21,698 nucleotides of DNA from a virus, in IMG/VR virus record IMGVR_UViG_3300030107_000837, positions 1 to 21,698 of that record, one strand, 5' to 3'. Numbering within the stretch: position 1 is the first letter of the stretch; each line of letters starts with the position of its first letter. The notes under the pieces were generated by a model that saw only the letters and a program-made list of their open reading frames with translations, was not told where the DNA came from and did not search any database. Below, in pieces: positions 5,571-20,299 of this stretch. Position numbers and translations under genes: made by a program.

Positions 5571-5613
5571 AAGAAAAAAAGGGGCTCCCGCAGAATAAAC
5601 TACGAGAGCCCCT
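5571..5613 (-). terminator. Rho-independent terminator after the major capsid gene
   Basis: On the minus strand an AGGGGCTC...GAGCCCCT stem (7 G/C-rich pairs plus one A:T; arms about 5580-5587 and 5606-5613) closes an 18-base loop in which two further C:G pairs are possible. It is followed directly by a run of seven T (5580-5574). It lies 17 bases past the MCP stop and just before the tail tubular A start, where T7 has its late terminator. As in T7 it probably lets the capsid message dominate while some polymerases read through to the tail genes. Confidence 0.92.
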
Positions 5614-5630
5614 CTAAGGTTTAATTACCG

Positions 5631-6689
5631 TTAGCTAACAACGCTAATAGCGGCTTCAGGCCGAAGAATGCCGTGACCCATTGCATACTTAGCCAACATG
5701 AGCGTTGACTGCTTCTGCATCGAGTATTCGGACTCAACAGCAAGGTCGAGAAGCTTGACAGTTCCGATGGCGGACTTGTGTCCGGCCAAGAACTGAACAA
5801 CGTCAAGACCAGCGTCAAGGTAACCCTTGTCGTCTGAGGTTCCTTCCGCGTCGTCGAACGGGTTGTTGTTCGCGTTGACATCATCACCAGTAGTATCGTT
5901 GGTAGCGATGTCAGAGATGTGCGGAGAGCTGTAGATTTTGATACCCAGCAGCTCTGGAATGTTACCAGCGGCTACACCACCACTACCACCAAAGTCCCGG
6001 TTAATAGCGATACTGTCGCTACCGGTCAGAAGGTAGTATTGAGCCGGGGTAAGAATCGCAAAGCGGTCCTCACTCGGCACGTGGTTCTCGTCCAGCGTCT
6101 GAGCAATAACCCGGAAGGTCTGAACGATGTTTGCAGCGGTGCTCAGGTCAGCGGGAGCGCCCGTAGTGGTGCCCAAGTCAATCCGTCCGCCTTGAGCGGC
6201 GTTCGGGTTAGCCCGGTCAGCATGGTCGGTCTCCGCAGCAGCAGCCAGTGTCCGCAACGTGGCGAGGTCAAACCGCTTGGCGAGAGCCCGGCCCAGTTCC
6301 GTAGAATAGGCAGAGCGGACGTCGTAGTGGTTCTTAAGCTCGTCGATGTTAGCGATAGAGGTAGCCGCAAGCAGCACGTCATCAATGTTAATAACACGCT
6401 CACGGTGTTTGATTTGAGTCGGGTAGGTCGAGCCGTTGCCCTTTTCAAACACATCATCACCGGGAGTGTGATACTTCGCTTCCGCAGTTCCCAGAACAGG
6501 GAATTGCGCCGACTTACCGCTCGAAATGGTCCGAACGGTGTGAAGCTCTTTCATCACGTTTGCTTCCTCGAAGGCCGTAAGCACTTCGTTTCCGAAAACT
6601 TTGAGGAAAAGAGCATTATCTTGTGCATACGTCCCGGTAGTCCCCATCGAGGCTCCGAGGCGTGACGGAGTTGTATCTCCATTAGCCAT
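5631..6689 (-). CDS. Major capsid protein (T7 gp10A-like, HK97 fold)
   Basis: This 352-aa protein is close to T7 gp10A (345 aa). It starts MANGDTTPSRLGASMG, and family features follow: ALFLKVFGNEVLTAFEEANV (about residues 26-45), TISSGKSAQFPVLG (about 55-68, equivalent to the T7 'GKSAQFPV' block), the HTPGDDV segment, then IDDVLLAATSIANIDELKNHYDVR (about 101-124). It assembles into the icosahedral shell around the scaffold. A good ribosome binding site (AAAGGA, about 10 bases upstream) precedes the ATG. The 102-base gap before it (6690-6791) is one of the longest in the late region and is where a phage promoter would be expected, but I could not recognise a repeated promoter sequence. Base composition is much richer in G+C than the tail genes: one 60-base line hand-counted gives about 67%. 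I saw no slippery sequence for a 10B-type frameshift product. Confidence 0.97.
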   Translation of the reverse strand: MANGDTTPSRLGASMGTTGTYAQDNALFLKVFGNEVLTAFEEANVMKELHTVRTISSGKSAQFPVLGTAEAKYHTPGDDVFEKGNGSTYPTQIKHRERVINIDDVLLAATSIANIDELKNHYDVRSAYSTELGRALAKRFDLATLRTLAAAAETDHADRANPNAAQGGRIDLGTTTGAPADLSTAANIVQTFRVIAQTLDENHVPSEDRFAILTPAQYYLLTGSDSIAINRDFGGSGGVAAGNIPELLGIKIYSSPHISDIATNDTTGDDVNANNNPFDDAEGTSDDKGYLDAGLDVVQFLAGHKSAIGTVKLLDLAVESEYSMQKQSTLMLAKYAMGHGILRPEAAISVVS

Positions 6690-6791
6690 TGTTTAATGTC
6701 CTTTCTTTAAGGTTTAGAGTTTAATTTACCGTTTCAAGTCCTTGTTCATATTGTTCACTCGTAAGCGTTATCCTTTCGGGCGCTTCGGTTA

Positions 6792-7487
6792 CTAAGCTAC
6801 TACTTTAGACAGGAAATTCTTAATCCCTCTGGCGTATGCTTTCGCCAGTAAGTTACGAGAAGCGGAGAACATACTCCACTCTCGCTCATTAGAGCCAAAG
6901 AATGGCTCACAAATGACGGCAGGACACTTGGTCTTAACCAAGAATCCACCGCCACGGGAAAATTTTTGCATGGGCTTTGTGCCCCTGTTTTTGGTGTTGT
7001 ATTCCGTAATGACCTCTATTTGCAAATTAGCGGCCAAACGCTCGCCGGACGCAGACTTATGATAGTAAAGCATCTCGCATCCATTTGCTGACGGTGAGGC
7101 GGAATTAAAGTGCAGCTCAATGGCTGCTGTGACGCCGTCTTCGTCCATCTGGCTAGCTACCCAACGCATTGCGCTACTGTAGCTGGACCCTTCGTATTCG
7201 TCGTATATCTTGGAAGGAATACCAAAGTCATTAAGATACTTCTTCAGGAGAGAGGCTACGCGAACATTGTATAGCCACTCGTTCATTCCGCTTACGCTTA
7301 GCGCACCTGAATCGTCAGGTCTGGAATGCCCTACACAAATCCCAATAAGGTCAGCGGGCTTCGAGGTCGTTGGCGTATTTGAGGAGTCTTCCAATGGTTT
7401 CTTTTTCTTCAGGCGAGAAAGAATGTTTCTCCAGCTCTTGAATAAAGAAAGGAATTTCACTTTTCTTAATCGTCGTCGTGCACCCAA
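6792..7487 (-). CDS. N-acetylmuramoyl-L-alanine amidase (Amidase_3-type endolysin)
   Basis: This enzyme cleaves the bond between N-acetylmuramic acid and L-alanine in peptidoglycan, for lysis. The zinc-amidase pattern is visible, numbering from a TTG at 7487: H54 in ICVGHSRPDDSGA, E70 in GMNEWLYNVRVA, H126 in AIELHFNSAS, and probable catalytic E194 in VICEPFFGSN. This is the AmiA/AmiC family, not the T7 gp3.5 lysozyme family. The catalytic domain starts near residue 46; about 40 basic residues precede it. The start is uncertain: 7487 is a TTG, and a GTG at 7460 or a TTG at 7394 are alternatives. All three lie inside the overlapping lipoprotein gene (7548-7351), so the N-terminal extension may be an artefact of overprinting. 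There is no signal peptide, so a holin is expected to release it. It sits directly upstream of MCP, an unusual place for an endolysin. Confidence 0.88.
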   Translation of the reverse strand: MGARRRLRKVKFLSLFKSWRNILSRLKKKKPLEDSSNTPTTSKPADLIGICVGHSRPDDSGALSVSGMNEWLYNVRVASLLKKYLNDFGIPSKIYDEYEGSSYSSAMRWVASQMDEDGVTAAIELHFNSASPSANGCEMLYYHKSASGERLAANLQIEVITEYNTKNRGTKPMQKFSRGGGFLVKTKCPAVICEPFFGSNEREWSMFSASRNLLAKAYARGIKNFLSKVVA

Positions 7488-7548
7488 CGATTGATAAGCT
7501 TATCGTTGCGCTTATTACGCCGAGCTTTATACGCCTTAAAGTATTCAT
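7351..7548 (-). CDS. Small lipoprotein of the lysis cassette (possible outer-membrane spanin)
   Basis: This 65-aa protein has an N-terminal basic segment (MNTLRRIK), a hydrophobic stretch, and a lipobox SIVGC with the lipidated Cys at residue 23. The mature 43 residues are charged and probably helical (EIPFFIQELEKHSFSPEEK...LLKYANDLE). An AAGG Shine-Dalgarno site precedes the ATG with good spacing. The gene begins inside the 50-aa ORF upstream (83-base overlap, different frame) and ends inside the amidase frame. Overlapping out-of-frame lipoproteins next to an endolysin are typical of Rz/Rz1-type spanin genes, which disrupt the outer membrane in Gram-negative lysis. That role is inferred; the lipobox is seen directly. 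The coding claim is supported by the signal peptide, the ribosome site and the context. Confidence 0.68.
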   Translation of the reverse strand: MNTLRRIKLGVISATISLSIVGCTTTIKKSEIPFFIQELEKHSFSPEEKETIGRLLKYANDLEAR

Positions 7549-7618
7549 CCCTGACCTTAAAGAACAAGTCAGCCAGCTTAGGGAACTGAATCAATAAACT
7601 GACAACCAGTTTAACCAT
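7466..7618 (-). CDS. 50-aa basic protein of the lysis cassette, function unknown
   Basis: This small ORF begins at the ATG of a TAATG junction, so its A is shared with the stop of the holin-like gene, and it ends in TAA at 7466-7468. The protein starts MVKLVVSLLIQFPKLADLFF and continues with a strongly charged helix rich in Arg and Lys (KVRDEYFKAYKARRNKRNDK), ending INRWVHDDD. The N-terminal 20 residues are hydrophobic or amphipathic and could associate with the membrane. The stop-start coupling, the absence of any other gene in 7549-7617, and the protein-like composition support real coding. It overlaps the lipoprotein gene by 83 bases in another frame. It could be an inner-membrane lysis partner or regulator, but it is too short for a classical Rz-type spanin. 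The function is not known to me. Confidence 0.6.
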   Translation of the reverse strand: MVKLVVSLLIQFPKLADLFFKVRDEYFKAYKARRNKRNDKLINRWVHDDD

Positions 7619-7806
7619 TACTTGCTTTTAGCCTTTCCGATGTTCAGGGCGAGCCAGCTCACCACTTTAGATGCGCGAGCAACCCACTTGTTGTCGCTCT
7701 CGTTGGGGGTCATCGTAGCGATAAGACTAGCGACAGTAACAACGCCGGTAAGGATACCAATAATGGCTTCTTTATTATCAGAAACCCAAGTCAATGCGTC
7801 AGTCAT
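7618..7806 (-). CDS. Holin-like small membrane protein
   Basis: This 62-aa protein has one clear hydrophobic segment, about residues 14-33 (AIIGILTGVVTVASLIATMT), flanked by a short polar N-terminus and a C-terminal segment ending LALNIGKAKSK with clustered lysines. The pattern 'one membrane helix, T-P linker, then a lysine-ended LALNIGKAK tail' is one I recall from small phage proteins of the holin-like type. A holin would permeabilise the inner membrane and release the amidase encoded 130 bases downstream. The gene starts 2 bases after the 42-aa lipoprotein stop and is stop-start coupled (TAATG) to the next ORF, so the cassette is translated as a unit. Holin identity is inferred from size, membrane segment and neighbourhood, not from a catalytic signature. 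Confidence 0.66.
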   Translation of the reverse strand: MTDALTWVSDNKEAIIGILTGVVTVASLIATMTPNESDNKWVARASKVVSWLALNIGKAKSK

Positions 7807-7808
7807 AA

Positions 7809-7937
7809 CTACTCTACGTTAATATCAAGACTACCTGACGGCTCCACGCTAACGCTAACCCAAGGGGTAGACACAGCGCAGGAAACTAGAGCAACGCTGA
7901 GCGCCGCTACAACAAGGAGGATAATTTTACTCTTCAT
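7809..7937 (-). CDS. 42-aa lipoprotein (lysis cassette), function unknown
   Basis: This ORF is too short for routine gene calling but has a textbook lipoprotein signal: MKSKIILLVVAALSVALVSC, with two lysines, a hydrophobic core and the lipobox LVSC (Cys20). The mature part is only 23 residues (beginning CAVSTPWVSVSVEPSG) and ends in an acidic DINVE tail. It fills the gap between the scaffold stop (7942) and the holin-like start (7806) almost exactly, leaving 4 and 2 bases. No Shine-Dalgarno site precedes it, so translation is probably coupled to the scaffold gene. Very small lipoproteins beside a holin and an endolysin suggest a spanin-like or lysis-regulating role. With a second lipoprotein at 7548-7351, the cassette would encode two. 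The coding call is based on the signal sequence and the exact packing. Confidence 0.66.
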   Translation of the reverse strand: MKSKIILLVVAALSVALVSCAVSTPWVSVSVEPSGSLDINVE

Positions 7938-7941
7938 TTTA

Positions 7942-8706
7942 TTAGATGTTGGATATAGCCAAACGCCGTTCTACTTCAGTGCGGTAGGCTGGGTCAACTT
8001 CATACTTCTTACGCCCAGTAGCATCTCTTTCTGCCATAGCAGCGAGAACTTGAGCCCGACTTTCAAACGGAGCCGAACTGGAACCTTGCGTCTTACCAAG
8101 GATAAGAGCCGGGTTAGTCCCATTGTCAGCTTCATATTTACCTTTAAGCCAGTCTAGAGCGAGCTTTGCTTGCTGCTCTGTGCCCGTTTCAACAGCTTTA
8201 TTGTAGGCGTCAAGCTGCGTTTCGCTAAGAGACTCAGAGGCCCATTCAGCCATACGATTGTAGGCTTCTTTGCCCCCAACTACGTCCATCAACTCTGCTT
8301 CCGCTGTAGAATGAAGCGCTTGTTGTCCTTCGATATAAGAATCTACTAGCTCTTTACTTAAACCAACTTTCTGCAAAGCGTCGTAAGTCATGTCGCTTAG
8401 CTCTCCCGTTTCGCTCCATTCAGCGGATGCGGCTTGAATCGCGCTCGTTTGACTCTCAGAGCCTTCGCTTTCGCCGCTAGGCTCCGTTGGTGGGAGGTCT
8501 TCTGCTTCGCTAGGTTCTTGATTTGAACCAAGTTTTGCTTCAAGACTATTGTAGGCTCTCGCCAAGTCTTCTGGGCTTTTGAACTTTTCAGGGAGCCACT
8601 CGGGACGACCATCGTCTGCGGGCTTGTCTGGAATGTTCTCTGCTTCTTCCTCAAGTGTGATTTGTTCTGAGGGTGTTGGGTCGTTTATTTCGTATGTATC
8701 AGCCAT
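7942..8706 (-). CDS. Scaffolding (capsid assembly) protein, T7 gp9-like
   Basis: This 254-aa, strongly acidic protein starts MADTYEINDPTPSEQ. An early conserved block near residues 33-60 reads RPEWLPEKFKSPEDLARAYN, which is typical of podoviral scaffold proteins. The middle (about 60-95) is a Ser/Glu/Pro-rich disordered stretch. The C-terminal part is helical and more basic, ending YRTEVERRLAISNI, in keeping with the shell-binding C-termini of scaffolds. T7 gp9 is 307 residues. It directs procapsid assembly with MCP and leaves before DNA packaging. It follows the portal gene by one base, as in T7, but unlike T7 it is separated from MCP by a lysis cassette. An AGAGGAA ribosome site precedes the ATG. 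Confidence 0.93.
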   Translation of the reverse strand: MADTYEINDPTPSEQITLEEEAENIPDKPADDGRPEWLPEKFKSPEDLARAYNSLEAKLGSNQEPSEAEDLPPTEPSGESEGSESQTSAIQAASAEWSETGELSDMTYDALQKVGLSKELVDSYIEGQQALHSTAEAELMDVVGGKEAYNRMAEWASESLSETQLDAYNKAVETGTEQQAKLALDWLKGKYEADNGTNPALILGKTQGSSSAPFESRAQVLAAMAERDATGRKKYEVDPAYRTEVERRLAISNI

Positions 8707-8707
8707 G

Positions 8708-10276
8708 TTATTGTTCCTCTGCTACCGGCTCTCCTGTTTCTTCTGGAGGAGCCGACAGAGCATCTCGCGTAATGTTACCTAAAGCTGCGGCCCCTTGCGG
8801 AGCTGCTTTTTCAGCCATAGCCATCATTTGCGCTTGTTGCATTTCTTGTTGTATTTCTTCTTGTGTCTTAATGAGCCCTTGGGTCTTGATTCCAAGACTA
8901 GTAGCTCTCCGCTTAAAGTATTCCTCGACGTTTACAAACTGACCAATTGCTTGCGGTCCTACCACTTGCGCAGCTCCGGCAAGGAACAGGTCCAGTTTTT
9001 GTAGGTCATTACCTCGACCCAGTGCCTCAATGCCTGTAATAATAACAGGCCGCACAAGGTCTTTAGGAAGCTTAGGCAAACGCTTTTGCTTGCCCATTAC
9101 GTCCATGACCCGATTTACCATGGGGAGCTGAAGCTCGTTACTCAGCAAAGAGTAAAGCCCTCCTAGAGAAGACTCTAGCTCCATTGTAAGCATCCTGATT
9201 TCTTCAGCGGTAACGCGCTCTGCGTTACGGACTACGCCGGAGGTCAAAAGGAAAGCGTGCCCCAGTCGGTCTTTAATCGCTGTTATAGTTTCCGAGGCAA
9301 TACGGAAGTCATTGAACTTATCCAACTGAAGAACAGAAACGTCAGCTGCATTACCTTGAGTAATGGCCCCGTTAGGACTTTCAGCCAGCGTTTTAGCTCT
9401 AGTGGTTCCGTTTGGATTAACCAAGAACAATACCTTTGCAGCCGCAGCGGAGCCTTCGACAATAGCCTGAGTCAGCTTCTCAAGGCTTATGAGGTCTCCA
9501 AGGTATTCCTCTACATATCCCCTTCCATAATCCTCGCCATCAATCTTAGAAAACCGAAGAGCGATGTAAGGAAGGTTTTCTTTTTTGAACACCCCTTCCG
9601 AACCCTCAACAACAGTGCCTTTGATTTCTTGGTGAACTACCCAGTTGTCCCCGTGCAAACAAATAGAAGTGAACAAATCACAATCTTTATCCGGGGAGCC
9701 GTCGCCGTGAAGACCAGCGGCCATCTTGAGGTCGTCCGAAAGAGAGCTGTAAGCAAGGGTCTCTTTGGTAACAATTTTCAAAGGGTTACCCATTGGGTCT
9801 CTTTGAACCACGAAGCGGTCTAAGTGGAAGACCCTCAAGCCCCCATCTTCTGGTAAATACAAAAGAGCATTTCCAGAAACGATGAGGTGCTTGAGAGCTT
9901 CATGGATGCCTACCCTGTAAGATTGTCTGCTAACCTCCTCCATTACCGATTCCTCAACCCGCTGCAAAGCGGACTCCATTTCGGTAATAATATCTTCGGT
10001 AGCCCCCTCTTGACGCAAAACATTCTCGTCAAAGTTAAGGCGGAAAAATGGGGCATTCGGAGCCAGTAAGGCTAGTAGTAATTTTGAAGCTAGGTTGTTG
10101 ACCCCTCTTGCTCCAATGCCCTGAAAAGGTGTTTCAAGGCGTGAGTGTGAATTATGCCCGTCTTCTGGGATAAGGTAAGGTAAGGTCAGCTTTGAAGCCT
10201 GCCGCGCCCGGTCGAGAAAGGGTTTCCTTTCATGTTCAAGGGAAGTGTATAGAGCCTCGGCGGATGTAGGATTCAT
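8708..10276 (-). CDS. Portal / head-tail connector protein (T7 gp8-like)
   Basis: This 522-aa protein is close to T7 gp8 (536 aa). Family features visible from the N-terminus are RARQASKLTLPYLIPEDGHN (about residues 23-42), the GARGVNNLASKLLLALLAPNAPFFRL block (about 54-79), SGNALLYLPEDGGLRVFHLDRFVVQRDP (about 134-161), and the central SLEKLTQAIVEGSAAAAKVLFLVNPNG block near 268-290, followed by a TSGVVRNAERVTAEEIR segment. Twelve copies form the DNA channel at one capsid vertex, where terminase docks and the tail attaches. The C-terminus is Gln/Met/Ala-rich. The gene lies 17 bases after the LamG-like gene and one base before the scaffold. The start ATG at 10276 gives the family-consistent N-terminus. 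Confidence 0.97.
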   Translation of the reverse strand: MNPTSAEALYTSLEHERKPFLDRARQASKLTLPYLIPEDGHNSHSRLETPFQGIGARGVNNLASKLLLALLAPNAPFFRLNFDENVLRQEGATEDIITEMESALQRVEESVMEEVSRQSYRVGIHEALKHLIVSGNALLYLPEDGGLRVFHLDRFVVQRDPMGNPLKIVTKETLAYSSLSDDLKMAAGLHGDGSPDKDCDLFTSICLHGDNWVVHQEIKGTVVEGSEGVFKKENLPYIALRFSKIDGEDYGRGYVEEYLGDLISLEKLTQAIVEGSAAAAKVLFLVNPNGTTRAKTLAESPNGAITQGNAADVSVLQLDKFNDFRIASETITAIKDRLGHAFLLTSGVVRNAERVTAEEIRMLTMELESSLGGLYSLLSNELQLPMVNRVMDVMGKQKRLPKLPKDLVRPVIITGIEALGRGNDLQKLDLFLAGAAQVVGPQAIGQFVNVEEYFKRRATSLGIKTQGLIKTQEEIQQEMQQAQMMAMAEKAAPQGAAALGNITRDALSAPPEETGEPVAEEQ

Positions 10277-11763: not shown

Positions 11764-11769
11764 ATATAC

Positions 11770-12048
11770 CTACTCTCTATTTTTATCGCATTCGCGCTGG
11801 AGGTTCGCCATGGCTCGCCAAGCGACCGCCGCCCAGTCTTCTTCGATTAGGTGCCTCATCAGAGCGTCTAGCTCGTCTGTAGACTTACTCTTGTCCCAGA
11901 ACAGCTCTTTGTCAGGGTGGTGCTGGAGGTTCCCTTCGGCGCTACGCTTAGTGACCTCAACGATAGCGTCAGGGAAATACCGAACAAAACCCCTATAGAT
12001 AGGGATTTGTTTTCGCTCTTCGGCTGTCCCGGTTATGACGGTTCCCAT
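11770..12048 (-). CDS. dATP/dGTP diphosphohydrolase N-terminal-like protein
   Basis: This 92-aa protein carries the signature 'YRGFVRYFPDAIVEVTKRSAEGNLQHHP...LFWDKSKSTDELDALMRHLIEE' followed by VAWRAMANLQRE. I recognise this as the family named after the N-terminal domain of phage dATP/dGTP diphosphohydrolases (formerly DUF5664), where G-N-x-Q-H-x-P and DALMRHL are conserved. Phage proteins of this group act in nucleotide metabolism, for instance in supplying or filtering dNTPs. This version consists of that domain alone, so an active enzyme is not established. A strong ribosome site (AAAGGAGA) precedes the ATG, and the start overlaps the end of the exonuclease gene by 16 bases. It closes the replication block. 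Confidence 0.72.
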   Translation of the reverse strand: MGTVITGTAEERKQIPIYRGFVRYFPDAIVEVTKRSAEGNLQHHPDKELFWDKSKSTDELDALMRHLIEEDWAAVAWRAMANLQRECDKNRE

Positions 12049-14928: not shown

Positions 14929-16404
14929 TTAAAAAGAGGGGGTTTCGTCGTCATCGTTGCCTTCTTGTGTGTGTGTTATCTCCGCTTCTACCAGTCTTCC
15001 TGTTGTTTGGCTATAACGAAGTGTAGTCGCCAACCCCGTGTCACCGCTGAACCTGTTCTTCAAGACGCGCACATTTGTTAGATGGCGAGCCTCGGGGTCC
15101 TGTTGGTCGCGCTCTAGCCCAACAACGCAGTCAGACAACTGAGCAATGGCAGCGCTACCCCTAAGCTGAGCCAGCGTGGTCTCCGCTCCATTCTCATGGC
15201 CACGCCCATCAGGGCGCTTGAGGTGACTAACCAATATCAAGCCAAGCTTACATTCCTCTACAAGCCCTCGCAGCTTGGTCATCGTGTTGTCTATGAGTCT
15301 TCGCTCATCGCCGCTGTCGATACCGCTGACCACAATGGACAGGTGGTCTAGGACGATGTATTCAACGCCCAGAGCCTTTGCCATGTAGCGGATGTGATTG
15401 AGTAGGTTGTCGGACTCCAATGAACCCCAGTGGTCATAGAAGAACATACGACCATTACCTACCGTTTCGTTAAACGCGGTCTTGTAGTCGTCGTCCACCT
15501 TGATGGGTTCGAGATGCAAGAGCTTGTTCATTTCCAGACCGATGATTGAGTTGGCAGTGCGCTCAATGGATTCCTCCAAGGCGATGTAACCAATCTTTCG
15601 GTATGTGTTTCGTATGAGGTGATGCGCAATCTCCTTGGTCACCGCGCTCTTACCAATACCAGAACCAGCACAGATGGTAACAATCTCTCCCAGCCTGAGT
15701 CCGTGAGTCTTTTCGTTAAGACCAATCCATGGGTAAGGAACGCTGTCGTTGACCTTGGTGGTGGTTAGCCGGTCAAACAGGTCAGAACCTTCCATGATTG
15801 TGTCAGGACGCCAGACCTTGGCCTGCCAATAAGCATCCACAATCTCCCGGCTGCGCCCCTCCATGAGCATCTCATTGGGGTCCTTCATGGTGAGATGAGC
15901 AATCTTACACTTACCCGCTGGTAAGATATGACTGCACTCCTCGGCGGCTTTGTTACCCGCGTCGTCGTTGTCAAACATGAGGACAATCTCCTCAAACTTC
16001 TCCAACCACTTCAGCTGCTTTTTGAAAACGCTCTTAGCTGATTGCGCTCCACTAGGTAAACTTACAACCGGCCACTTACCTTCGCCAACAACTTGAGCTA
16101 CCGTAAGGCAATCAATCTCACCCTCAGTAACCGTCAGACGCTTGCCGCCGTTGGGCCAGAGGTGCTGACCCCAGAAGTAAGTAGGGCTGCCTATGGCGGT
16201 GAAGTCCTTGCCTTCAAAGCGAACCTTCTGAGCGATGATGCTTCGCTCCGGGTTGCGGTAGGTGGCTATGTGGCAATCTTTCCCTAGGTGGGAACCAATG
16301 CGGTAGTCATACCGCTGACATACTTCCTTGTGTATGCCTCTTGTCGGGATGGACATGAAGTCTCCCTGTAGGAATTGGGGAACTGTCCCCGGTGTTGTAT
16401 TCAT
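14929..16404 (-). CDS. Internal-start helicase form (T7 gp4B-like)
   Basis: An in-frame ATG at 16404 (MNTTPGTVPQFL) starts 47 codons after the full-length start, just past the zinc-binding domain. T7 gene 4 makes a short form, gp4B, from an internal start at codon 64, which lacks the zinc domain but keeps helicase activity. Here the internal ATG is preceded by an A/C-rich run, ACACACACAACAGAA, which resembles the leaders of the SSB and DNA polymerase genes in this genome. In the protein this region encodes the linker NGEKTHTTE, so a coding need for this particular composition is not obvious. Two products are therefore likely. This is inference by analogy plus the leader similarity. Confidence 0.6.
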   Translation of the reverse strand: MNTTPGTVPQFLQGDFMSIPTRGIHKEVCQRYDYRIGSHLGKDCHIATYRNPERSIIAQKVRFEGKDFTAIGSPTYFWGQHLWPNGGKRLTVTEGEIDCLTVAQVVGEGKWPVVSLPSGAQSAKSVFKKQLKWLEKFEEIVLMFDNDDAGNKAAEECSHILPAGKCKIAHLTMKDPNEMLMEGRSREIVDAYWQAKVWRPDTIMEGSDLFDRLTTTKVNDSVPYPWIGLNEKTHGLRLGEIVTICAGSGIGKSAVTKEIAHHLIRNTYRKIGYIALEESIERTANSIIGLEMNKLLHLEPIKVDDDYKTAFNETVGNGRMFFYDHWGSLESDNLLNHIRYMAKALGVEYIVLDHLSIVVSGIDSGDERRLIDNTMTKLRGLVEECKLGLILVSHLKRPDGRGHENGAETTLAQLRGSAAIAQLSDCVVGLERDQQDPEARHLTNVRVLKNRFSGDTGLATTLRYSQTTGRLVEAEITHTQEGNDDDETPSF

Positions 16405-16545
16405 TTCTGTTGTGTGTGTTTTCTCGCCATTGGAAGGAGTGAAGAGCCCGCAGACAAAGCACTTGGTGCTTCCGTCTTCGTTGATGGCTAACCCATCGCT
16501 GCTCCCACACTCCTCGCAAGGCTGGTGTGTAGTTACGAAACCCAT
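14929..16545 (-). CDS. Primase-helicase (T7 gp4A-like), full-length form
   Basis: The 538-aa protein is counted from the ATG at 16545 (MGFVTTHQPCEECG). An upstream GTG would extend it by 16 residues into the endonuclease gene and is less likely. A zinc-binding primase domain is present (C10, C13, C29, C32). TOPRIM primase motifs follow: TVTEGEIDCLT and VLMFDNDDAGNKAA. The RecA-like helicase has Walker A GSGIGKS (K299), Walker B YIVLDHLSIV, and a C-terminal LVSHLKRPDGRGHENG followed by LRGSAAIAQLSD and VLKNRFSGDTG. It unwinds DNA at the fork and makes RNA primers for the DNA polymerase. The C-terminus is acidic and ends in SF (DDDETPSF), like the Phe-ended acidic tail T7 gp4 uses to dock on polymerase. 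It overlaps the endonuclease gene by 13 bases. Confidence 0.97.
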   Translation of the reverse strand: MGFVTTHQPCEECGSSDGLAINEDGSTKCFVCGLFTPSNGEKTHTTEMNTTPGTVPQFLQGDFMSIPTRGIHKEVCQRYDYRIGSHLGKDCHIATYRNPERSIIAQKVRFEGKDFTAIGSPTYFWGQHLWPNGGKRLTVTEGEIDCLTVAQVVGEGKWPVVSLPSGAQSAKSVFKKQLKWLEKFEEIVLMFDNDDAGNKAAEECSHILPAGKCKIAHLTMKDPNEMLMEGRSREIVDAYWQAKVWRPDTIMEGSDLFDRLTTTKVNDSVPYPWIGLNEKTHGLRLGEIVTICAGSGIGKSAVTKEIAHHLIRNTYRKIGYIALEESIERTANSIIGLEMNKLLHLEPIKVDDDYKTAFNETVGNGRMFFYDHWGSLESDNLLNHIRYMAKALGVEYIVLDHLSIVVSGIDSGDERRLIDNTMTKLRGLVEECKLGLILVSHLKRPDGRGHENGAETTLAQLRGSAAIAQLSDCVVGLERDQQDPEARHLTNVRVLKNRFSGDTGLATTLRYSQTTGRLVEAEITHTQEGNDDDETPSF

Positions 16546-16916
16546 GTTAGTGGTATGACCTTCTCGCACCACTCGAATCCATGCTTGTCGCACCAGTCAG
16601 CATAAGTTGTCTTGCTGCTCTTGTTGAGCCGGTTCTTCGCGTTCTGGAAACAGAATCGAATGTCTAACTCAGGGTGCGCTTCGCGAACTCGTAGATGCTT
16701 TGTCCGGTCGGCTGATGTGAAGTAGCCCTTAGCTTCTACAATGACTCCATTCGGTAGAATGAAGTCAGGCTTGTAGGTTCTAAAGACCGTGTAGGTCAGC
16801 TTCTCGGTTTCGTAGGAGAAGGCAACGCCCATCTTATCCAAATGACTCGCTACCTTCTCCTCGAAACACGAACGATAACCTGACTTAGAACGGCGAGACT
16901 TTTTCTTCCTCGTCAT
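16533..16916 (-). CDS. Endonuclease I, Holliday junction resolvase (T7 gp3-like)
   Basis: This 127-aa protein is somewhat shorter than T7 endonuclease I (149 aa). It starts with a basic segment MTRKKKSRRSKSGYRS, followed by the first acidic residue at E20 (FEEK). The catalytic core is YKPDFILPNGVIVEAKGYF with D51, E61 and K63, spacing identical to T7 D55, E65 and K67. It resolves branched replication intermediates and helps break down host DNA. The gene overlaps the end of the SSB gene by 32 bases and the start of the primase-helicase by 13. No Shine-Dalgarno site is evident at the ATG at 16916, so translation is probably coupled. The gene order SSB (2.5), endonuclease (3), primase-helicase (4) is as in T7. 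Confidence 0.94.
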   Translation of the reverse strand: MTRKKKSRRSKSGYRSCFEEKVASHLDKMGVAFSYETEKLTYTVFRTYKPDFILPNGVIVEAKGYFTSADRTKHLRVREAHPELDIRFCFQNAKNRLNKSSKTTYADWCDKHGFEWCEKVIPLTWVS

Positions 16917-19927: not shown

Positions 19928-19935
19928 GGTAATTC

Positions 19936-19977
19936 CTGATATGTCGAAAGAATCGACACGTCAACACTATGTGTTGA
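19936..19977 (-). promoter_or_regulatory. Tandem inverted repeats and possible host promoter before the RNA polymerase gene
   Basis: Two perfect inverted repeats lie side by side 3 bases apart: TGTCGA-5-TCGACA (19942-19958) and TCAACAC-3-GTGTTGA (19961-19977). A third, CTATTT-1-AAATAG, is at 19997-20009. On the minus strand, TTGACG (19964-19959), a 17-base spacer and TATCAG (19941-19936) form a moderate sigma70-like promoter whose spacer is exactly the first inverted repeat. Such placement fits an operator, but the start point would then be within a base or two of the ATG at 19927. The repeats could instead be RNA hairpins in the leader (for RNase III or RNA stability). Confidence 0.4.
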
Positions 19978-20009
19978 AACAGCAAAACATTTTTGACTAT
20001 TTAAAATAG

Positions 20010-20155
20010 AGCAGGGGGGACGCAATCTGATGATAGTATTGGGAGGTGTGAGGGTGTGTGTGTGATGAGGGTGAGGTGTGAGTGGGTGTGCGCTGATGCG
20101 TGGGTTTTGTTTTTTGAGGTTTGTGTATTTGTGTGCATGATTTTGGTGCTGGGTA
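20010..20155 (-). other. G-poor, C/A-rich tract in the non-coding region before the RNA polymerase gene
   Basis: The non-coding stretch between the stem-loop at 20157-20199 and the RNA polymerase start is almost free of G on the sense (minus) strand, apart from a few scattered bases and its last 20. The plus strand appears as G/T-rich runs of GTGTGTGTG and GGTGTG. A 10-base direct repeat GAGGTGTGAG (plus strand) occurs at 20043 and 20073, 30 bases apart. A 45-codon open frame (20138-20001) exists but is His/Thr/Ser low complexity and is probably not a gene. Possible roles are an unstructured mRNA leader, an origin element or a protein-binding tract; nothing decides between them. Confidence 0.5.
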
Positions 20156-20156
20156 C

Positions 20157-20199
20157 AAAGAGAGGGCCTAGTCTTTATATTGACTAGAGCCCTCTCTTT
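20157..20199 (-). terminator. Strong stem-loop between the early genes and the RNA polymerase gene
   Basis: An 11-bp stem (AAAGAGAGGGC, 20157-20167, pairing with 20189-20199) continues, past a one-base bulge, into a further 6 bp (CTAGTC with GACTAG), closing an 8-base loop. The minus-strand 3' side ends in only three T, so it may be a modest terminator, a bidirectional terminator or an RNase III processing hairpin. It lies about 100 bases past the GP88-family stop. The sequence between that stop and the hairpin (20200-20299) is A+T-rich and shows no gene. Confidence 0.65.
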
Positions 20200-20299
20200 G
20201 GTTGTGGTTTATTTATTCCCTTTTACTATTTTAATGATTATTAGTAACCATATTATGTAGGGTATTAGTATTATTCTAGTAAGAATGAAGTCTATTAGT

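Follow-up and report, generated by a model that had tools for sequence, protein, structure and literature searches.

Lysis genes placed between the scaffold and major capsid protein (MCP) genes of T7-like phages are already on record. Rhizobium phage Pasto (MT708545), a member of the Autographiviridae, is annotated with the order scaffold-endolysin-holin-i-spanin-o-spanin-MCP, and Mesorhizobium phage Lo5R7ANS (KM199771) of the same family carries homologues of the Pasto lysis genes at the same site; in both, a T7-type Amidase_2 endolysin comes first and is accompanied by a class II holin and an i-spanin with an overlapping o-spanin. Pseudomonas phage LUZ100 (OP329100) has a T7-type lysozyme in its replication region, a T7-type holin at terS and no Amidase_3; its scaffold-MCP gap contains gp37, a homologue of the 62-aa protein (hol62) dealt with below, and an out-of-frame lipoprotein gene lying over a short hydrophobic/charged ORF. 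LUZ100 was reported to lack spanins (PMC10134795). Its gap lipoprotein matches the Rz-like spanin family phrog_1275 (1.6e-12), and the frames at 7676-7912 and 7743-8018 (annotated gp38, 7827-8018) likely form an Rz/Rz1-type pair.

The nearest relative of the virus studied here is AP013544 (MedDCM-OCT-S45-C18), an uncultured marine phage (Ayaqvirus) whose connector, MCP and RNA polymerase (RNAP) are 67%, 53% and 40% identical, respectively. It shares with our locus homologues of hol62 and of two further small proteins (bas50, lipo65) in the gap, an Amidase_3 enzyme and the same hairpin in the MCP leader, but its amidase gene (about 34-37% identity) follows the large terminase gene and it lacks the 42-aa lipoprotein. 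Within the AP013544 gap we also observed an unannotated overlapping lipoprotein gene (11766-11987, minus strand); its Amidase_3 gene is at 34359-35048 (minus strand).

So the scaffold-lysis-MCP layout, on which the initial annotation had remarked as a departure from T7, is neither unique nor unprecedented, since Pasto is annotated this way and Lo5R7ANS has the homologous genes in the same place. Rather than a T7-type endolysin with canonical holin and spanins, our locus has hol62 and a swapped-in Amidase_3 gene that overlaps a lipoprotein gene, none of which occurs in the gaps of Pasto or Lo5R7ANS.

Results

The window, i.e. the whole 21.7-kb virus record that was analysed, is a genome fragment with the terS region outside the contig and has T7-type RNAP, connector, scaffold, MCP and tail tube genes in T7 order, which marks this marine phage as T7-like (Autographiviridae). 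The five small ORFs between scaffold and MCP, initially proposed to be a compact lysis cassette, are all present on the minus strand (Table 1) and packed as tightly as had been described, with 4 nt between the scaffold and 42-aa lipoprotein genes, 2 nt between the latter and hol62, then TAATG and out-of-frame overlaps.

Table 1. Features of the scaffold-MCP region, with positions in the window.
Feature	Position	Strand	Evidence and remarks
Head-tail connector (portal)	8708..10276	-	PF12236, E 2.7e-84; same operon, upstream
Scaffold protein	7942..8706	-	PF05396, E 2.8e-15; phrog_1052
42-aa lipoprotein	7809..7937	-	Lipobox ALVSC; optional
hol62, 62-aa protein, lysis-linked, holin-like	7618..7806	-	phrog_9685; one TM segment and C-terminal amphipathic helix
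bas50, 50-aa basic protein	7466..7618	-	Membrane-proximal amphipathic; partner of overlapping lipoprotein
lipo65, 65-aa lipoprotein	7351..7548	-	Lipobox SIVGC; +1 frame relative to bas50; o-spanin-like family
Putative Amidase_3 endolysin, 222 aa	6792..7460	-	Probable GTG start; PF01520, E 8.6e-22
MCP leader RNA hairpin	6763..6785	-	P1, C, P2, GAAA loop, AUAA bulge
Major capsid protein (MCP)	5631..6689	-	PF21703, E 6e-58
Intrinsic-terminator-like hairpin, strong	5578..5615	-	Directly 3' of MCP; 16 pairs, T run

The order scaffold-(42-aa lipoprotein)-hol62-(variable)-bas50/lipo65/amidase-MCP recurs in about 25 related marine contigs, gathered by searches with the amidase and with the 19-mer GCGCCCGAAAGGATAACGC. 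Among 32 contigs with this 19-mer, the amidase gene is directly upstream in 29 and MCP directly downstream in 29, the exceptions being contig ends and one unrelated contig (L034). Because the order is kept in many independent contigs, whose amidases range from 41 to 100% identity, it is not due to chance. When 60 marine contigs were compared (those with both scaffold and MCP among the best 80 by MCP similarity and not a random sample), the gap held the trio of hol62, bas50 and overlapping lipo65 together with the amidase in 10, the trio alone in 22 and neither in 28. As for the fifth gene, the 42-aa lipoprotein is real as an ORF but no fixed member of the cassette; it is found in only part of the clade and is absent from many members including contig L003, where hol62 is instead followed by a Lys-rich ORF. 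With this correction, and another to the amidase start (see below), the observation of the gene cluster is confirmed. The gaps of L003, L056 (17028-17663), L020, L021 and L023 are a hotspot of small Lys-rich ORFs, the one in L003 (42 aa) resembling an ORF of Pelagibacter phage HTVC019P. In contig L096 the three trio genes stay in one block but are found immediately 5' of the connector gene (-3159 to -2632 relative to MCP) and not in the gap.

The amidase is a convincing Amidase_3 endolysin and a putative lytic enzyme, its assigned role in lysis being backed by family membership (78.4 bits for PF01520 against a curated cut-off of 27; 1.4e-35 for the phrog_435 endolysin) and by its active site. 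H45, E61, H117 and E185, which we take from knowledge of the Amidase_3 family to be the zinc ligands and the catalytic Glu, are invariant in 12 sequences including the AP013544 enzyme; the best solved-structure profile matches are the endolysin 3qay plus autolysins/amidases, and active-site residues align with those of 3qay and 5j72. The most likely start is GTG at 7460, five nt past the bas50 stop, because GTG is kept at this place in all 15 distinct amidases and the TTG at 7487 is not. Upstream TTG/GTG codons are absent from divergent amidases, in which the match runs into stops, and the TTG start with its three-frame overlap was rejected. Of the frame first given to the amidase (6792-7487), the out-of-frame overlap with lipo65 thus stands, but that with bas50 does not: started at GTG 7460, the enzyme would overlap the lipo65 gene only.

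This overprint places roughly the first 37 amidase codons (110 nt) over the lipo65 gene in another frame. Read in the lipo65 frame, the amidase GTG demands the Ser codon AGT, which accounts for 13% of Ser codons in the window phage and is present in 17 of 17 distinct sequences. Likewise, all 17 keep the amidase frame open where it crosses lipo65, against an expected 0.17-0.33 per sequence under random synonymous recoding, the 17 being related sequences and not independent trials. In contigs L210 and L249 the amidase gene comes after lipo65 with an overlap of about 10 nt. The N-terminal extension of the enzyme is a cationic amphipathic segment, in which a segment hydrophobicity/TM test found no TM or SAR signal, so export of the amidase would require a holin.

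Whether bas50 and lipo65 act in lysis as well was judged against known spanins. The lipobox of the lipo65 family has an invariant G-C and a +2 residue other than Asp, consistent with outer-membrane sorting, and the gene begins 70 nt into bas50 in the +1 frame, an arrangement that resembles overlapped spanin genes (PMC6139136) and is shared with the Rz/Rz1 spanins of T7 and lambda. Profile matches are weak and come from family members (5 of 14 to the phrog_456 Rz-like spanin, best 0.0015; 4 of 14 to LysC, best 0.005), the window's own lipo65 having no significant profile match. Unlike Rz, bas50 has neither a convincing TM segment (best 19-mer about +9 kcal/mol summed dG), for lack of which we rejected it as a classical i-spanin, nor a long periplasmic domain; its 50 residues are short for an i-spanin and the family is conserved only over the first 50 or so. 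We therefore call the two a spanin-like pair and not spanins, the part in lysis initially ascribed to the 65-aa lipoprotein being weakly favoured through its Rz1-like family matches. An alternative sees bas50, lipo65 and the 42-aa lipoprotein as small membrane morons (e.g. superinfection-exclusion lipoproteins) in an insertion hotspot and unrelated to lysis. While the crowding of the gap with small ORFs, the TM result for bas50 and the optional nature of the 42-aa lipoprotein would fit such morons, the three trio genes are kept side by side in many genomes and relocate jointly, the lipoprotein overlaps the partner in +1 as in overlapped spanins and the lipo65 family matches Rz1-like profiles; to our minds this makes a moron origin quite unlikely, and we keep to a spanin-like pair.

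hol62 belongs to no named holin family and matches only phrog_9685 and phrog_402, both of unknown function. It has one TM-compatible segment (residues 14-32, KD 2.20, summed dG -0.3) followed by an amphipathic C-terminal helix. Collections were scanned for relatives with a narrower alignment, the full one being too diverse, and in other phages these relatives adjoin six unrelated hydrolase types (GH19, M15, M23, Hydrolase_2, lysozyme, Amidase_3). In alphaproteobacterial prophage-like regions the neighbouring enzyme is Hydrolase_2, GH19 or M15; another phage group (L144, L145, L147, L188, L190-L202) has Amidase_3 close by, Salicola phage CGphi29 has M23 and Azospirillum phage Cd a lysozyme. Since the neighbours are cell-wall hydrolases of unrelated kinds, guilt by association makes a good case for lysis as the preferred reading of hol62. 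Among the prophage-like regions, eight (L160, L161, L164, L166, L170, L171, L177, L180) show the order large terminase, Hydrolase_2, mostly a coiled TM protein, then hol62; two 63-66 kb contigs of other marine phages (L190, L192) have a compact series of hol62, basic ORF, overlapping lipoprotein, TM ORF and Amidase_3.

Is hol62 then the holin of the system? In the relatives G001, G002 and AP013544, terS is directly preceded by a 51-53-aa ORF that contains two hydrophobic segments; it occupies the position of the T7 holin 17.5 and has weak PHROG holin matches in G001 and G002. LUZ100, in turn, carries a T7-type holin alongside its hol62 homologue. Based on these relatives hol62 may be a second or accessory holin, and we infer that the window phage has a terS-side holin, too, in the part of its genome beyond the contig. 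A reading with hol62 as main holin and the 53-aa ORF in some other role has in its favour the TM segment and the many phages in which hol62 adjoins an endolysin; we consider it unlikely, however, in view of the position and holin family matches of the 53-aa ORF and the combination seen in LUZ100. Hence the holin-like 62-aa protein of the initial annotation retains its link to lysis through its hydrolase neighbours but, with a terS-side candidate in relatives, not the standing of an only holin.

Downstream of the amidase, a 102-nt leader precedes MCP and contains the most novel item of the locus, an RNA hairpin with the plan P1 (2-5 pairs), C, P2, stable tetraloop (UGCG, UACG, CGAG, UGAG or GAAA), A[U/C]AA, P1', in which the C and A[U/C]AA face each other as an internal loop. 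Free folding predicts the window version as AAGCG-C-CC-GAAA-GG-AUAA-CGCUU; the whole leader folds ordinarily (z -0.75), its 36-nt core unusually well (z -2.2). The hairpin is present in 57 of 65 MCP leaders, which were gathered by MCP protein similarity and not by motif, as opposed to 7 of 2448 control windows (0.3%) from the same contigs. Across 39 distinct sequences, double changes occur in 8 of 9 pairs; double-changed cells number 92, compared with 34 when shuffled, and covariation is 0.65 compared with 0.22, this set having been selected on P2 and partly on P1 pairing, which inflates paired cells but not the variety of pairs; sliding the partner destroys the signal. Hairpins upstream of MCP also occur in AP013544, HTVC019P, HTVC031P, HTVC200P, roseophage CRP-113, CRP-403, RHEph21, BB8 and P-SCSP2, and homologous sites were seen in L064-L142. 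Searched with a hairpin model, complete genomes gave significant hits (AP013544, CRP-113) at the MCP leader only, while in LUZ100 and Pasto the hits were correctly placed but below threshold; the short-P2 variant of the window was not found by the model. Rfam has no match at the hairpin in the window and six relatives. Hits to a group II intron (E 0.14) and NsiR1 (E 0.08-0.2) lie elsewhere, below gathering scores, and were taken as chance. The leader block was rejected as a repeated phage promoter, being single-copy in the window and confined to the MCP leader in AP013544 and CRP-113. Literature searches returned no direct description of the MCP leader hairpin or of the scaffold-MCP lysis layout.

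The initial annotation had placed lysis under capsid-level transcription. If the cassette were on the abundant capsid mRNA, lysis timing would be tied to head production, and in line with this the genes follow directly on one another between scaffold and amidase, a stretch that has no notable terminator or promoter. But a conserved structured element and the 102-nt leader part amidase from MCP, a terminator directly follows MCP and in LUZ100, albeit a distant relative, the hol62/spanin-like genes are separated from MCP by the phage promoter phi7, and MCP is described there as being under local control by a promoter and a terminator (PMC10134795). A capsid mRNA shared with lysis genes is highly doubtful on these grounds, and because of the hairpin before MCP, the terminator after it and phi7 of LUZ100 we regard expression of the cassette at portal/scaffold level as more likely. 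A sigma-70 scan found fewer sites than in shuffles. At 19928-20299 on the minus strand of the window, the gap upstream of the RNAP gene contains a long inverted repeat, AAAGAGAGGGC...GCCCTCTCTTT, which probably serves to terminate the early genes.

Discussion

Judged by gene content, the T7 gp3.5-type enzyme is replaced by Amidase_3 in these phages, since the two amidase types do not co-occur in the genomes compared: a single Amidase_3 and no Amidase_2 is encoded by each of G001 (38.3 kb), G002 and AP013544, whereas in CRP-113, LUZ100, Pasto and KT997847 it is Amidase_2 that is present and Amidase_3 that is missing. Between the endonuclease I (16533-16916) and primase (14929-16593) genes, which abut, no gp3.5-type amidase was found in the window or in L056, and a gp3.5-type lysozyme/RNAP inhibitor is also missing from near-complete relatives of the window phage. 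T7 gp3.5 also restrains RNA polymerase, and its loss raises the question how these phages restrain theirs.

Taken together, we think it likely that the scaffold-MCP gap houses an Autographiviridae lysis module made of hol62, bas50 with lipo65 and an Amidase_3 in place of the gp3.5-type enzyme, which would be expressed on the portal-scaffold transcript and apart from MCP. What is left of the lysis cassette as originally conceived is thus the amidase, the 62-aa protein and, more weakly, lipo65; a sole holin, a unique layout and capsid-level transcription fall away. The cassette genes would be made late, and the inner membrane would be opened by holin function, provided by the terS-side holin-like gene with or without hol62. 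This would let the signal-less amidase into the periplasm, where it may cut MurNAc-L-Ala bonds, before the lipoprotein pair, with lipo65 as its outer-membrane part, helps to disrupt the outer membrane. MCP, for its part, would be expressed separately via its own leader hairpin and terminator.

In T7-like phages whose hosts are marine or soil bacteria, the scaffold-MCP gap appears as a recurrent home of lysis genes, in which type and place of the endolysin have been swapped at least once, with gp3.5 lost and Amidase_3 gained. Annotation evidently misses small overlapping spanin-like genes, LUZ100 with its reported lack of spanins being a case in point. Beyond lysis, we lean slightly towards the idea that most marine Autographiviridae carry one undescribed cis-acting hairpin in the MCP leader, which would give the capsid gene a post-transcriptional or processing control of its own, decoupled from the upstream small genes including a lysis module whose Amidase_3 gene, in this clade, overprints a spanin-like lipoprotein gene. 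The leader hairpin is thereby a testable candidate for capsid-gene control in abundant marine T7-like viruses.
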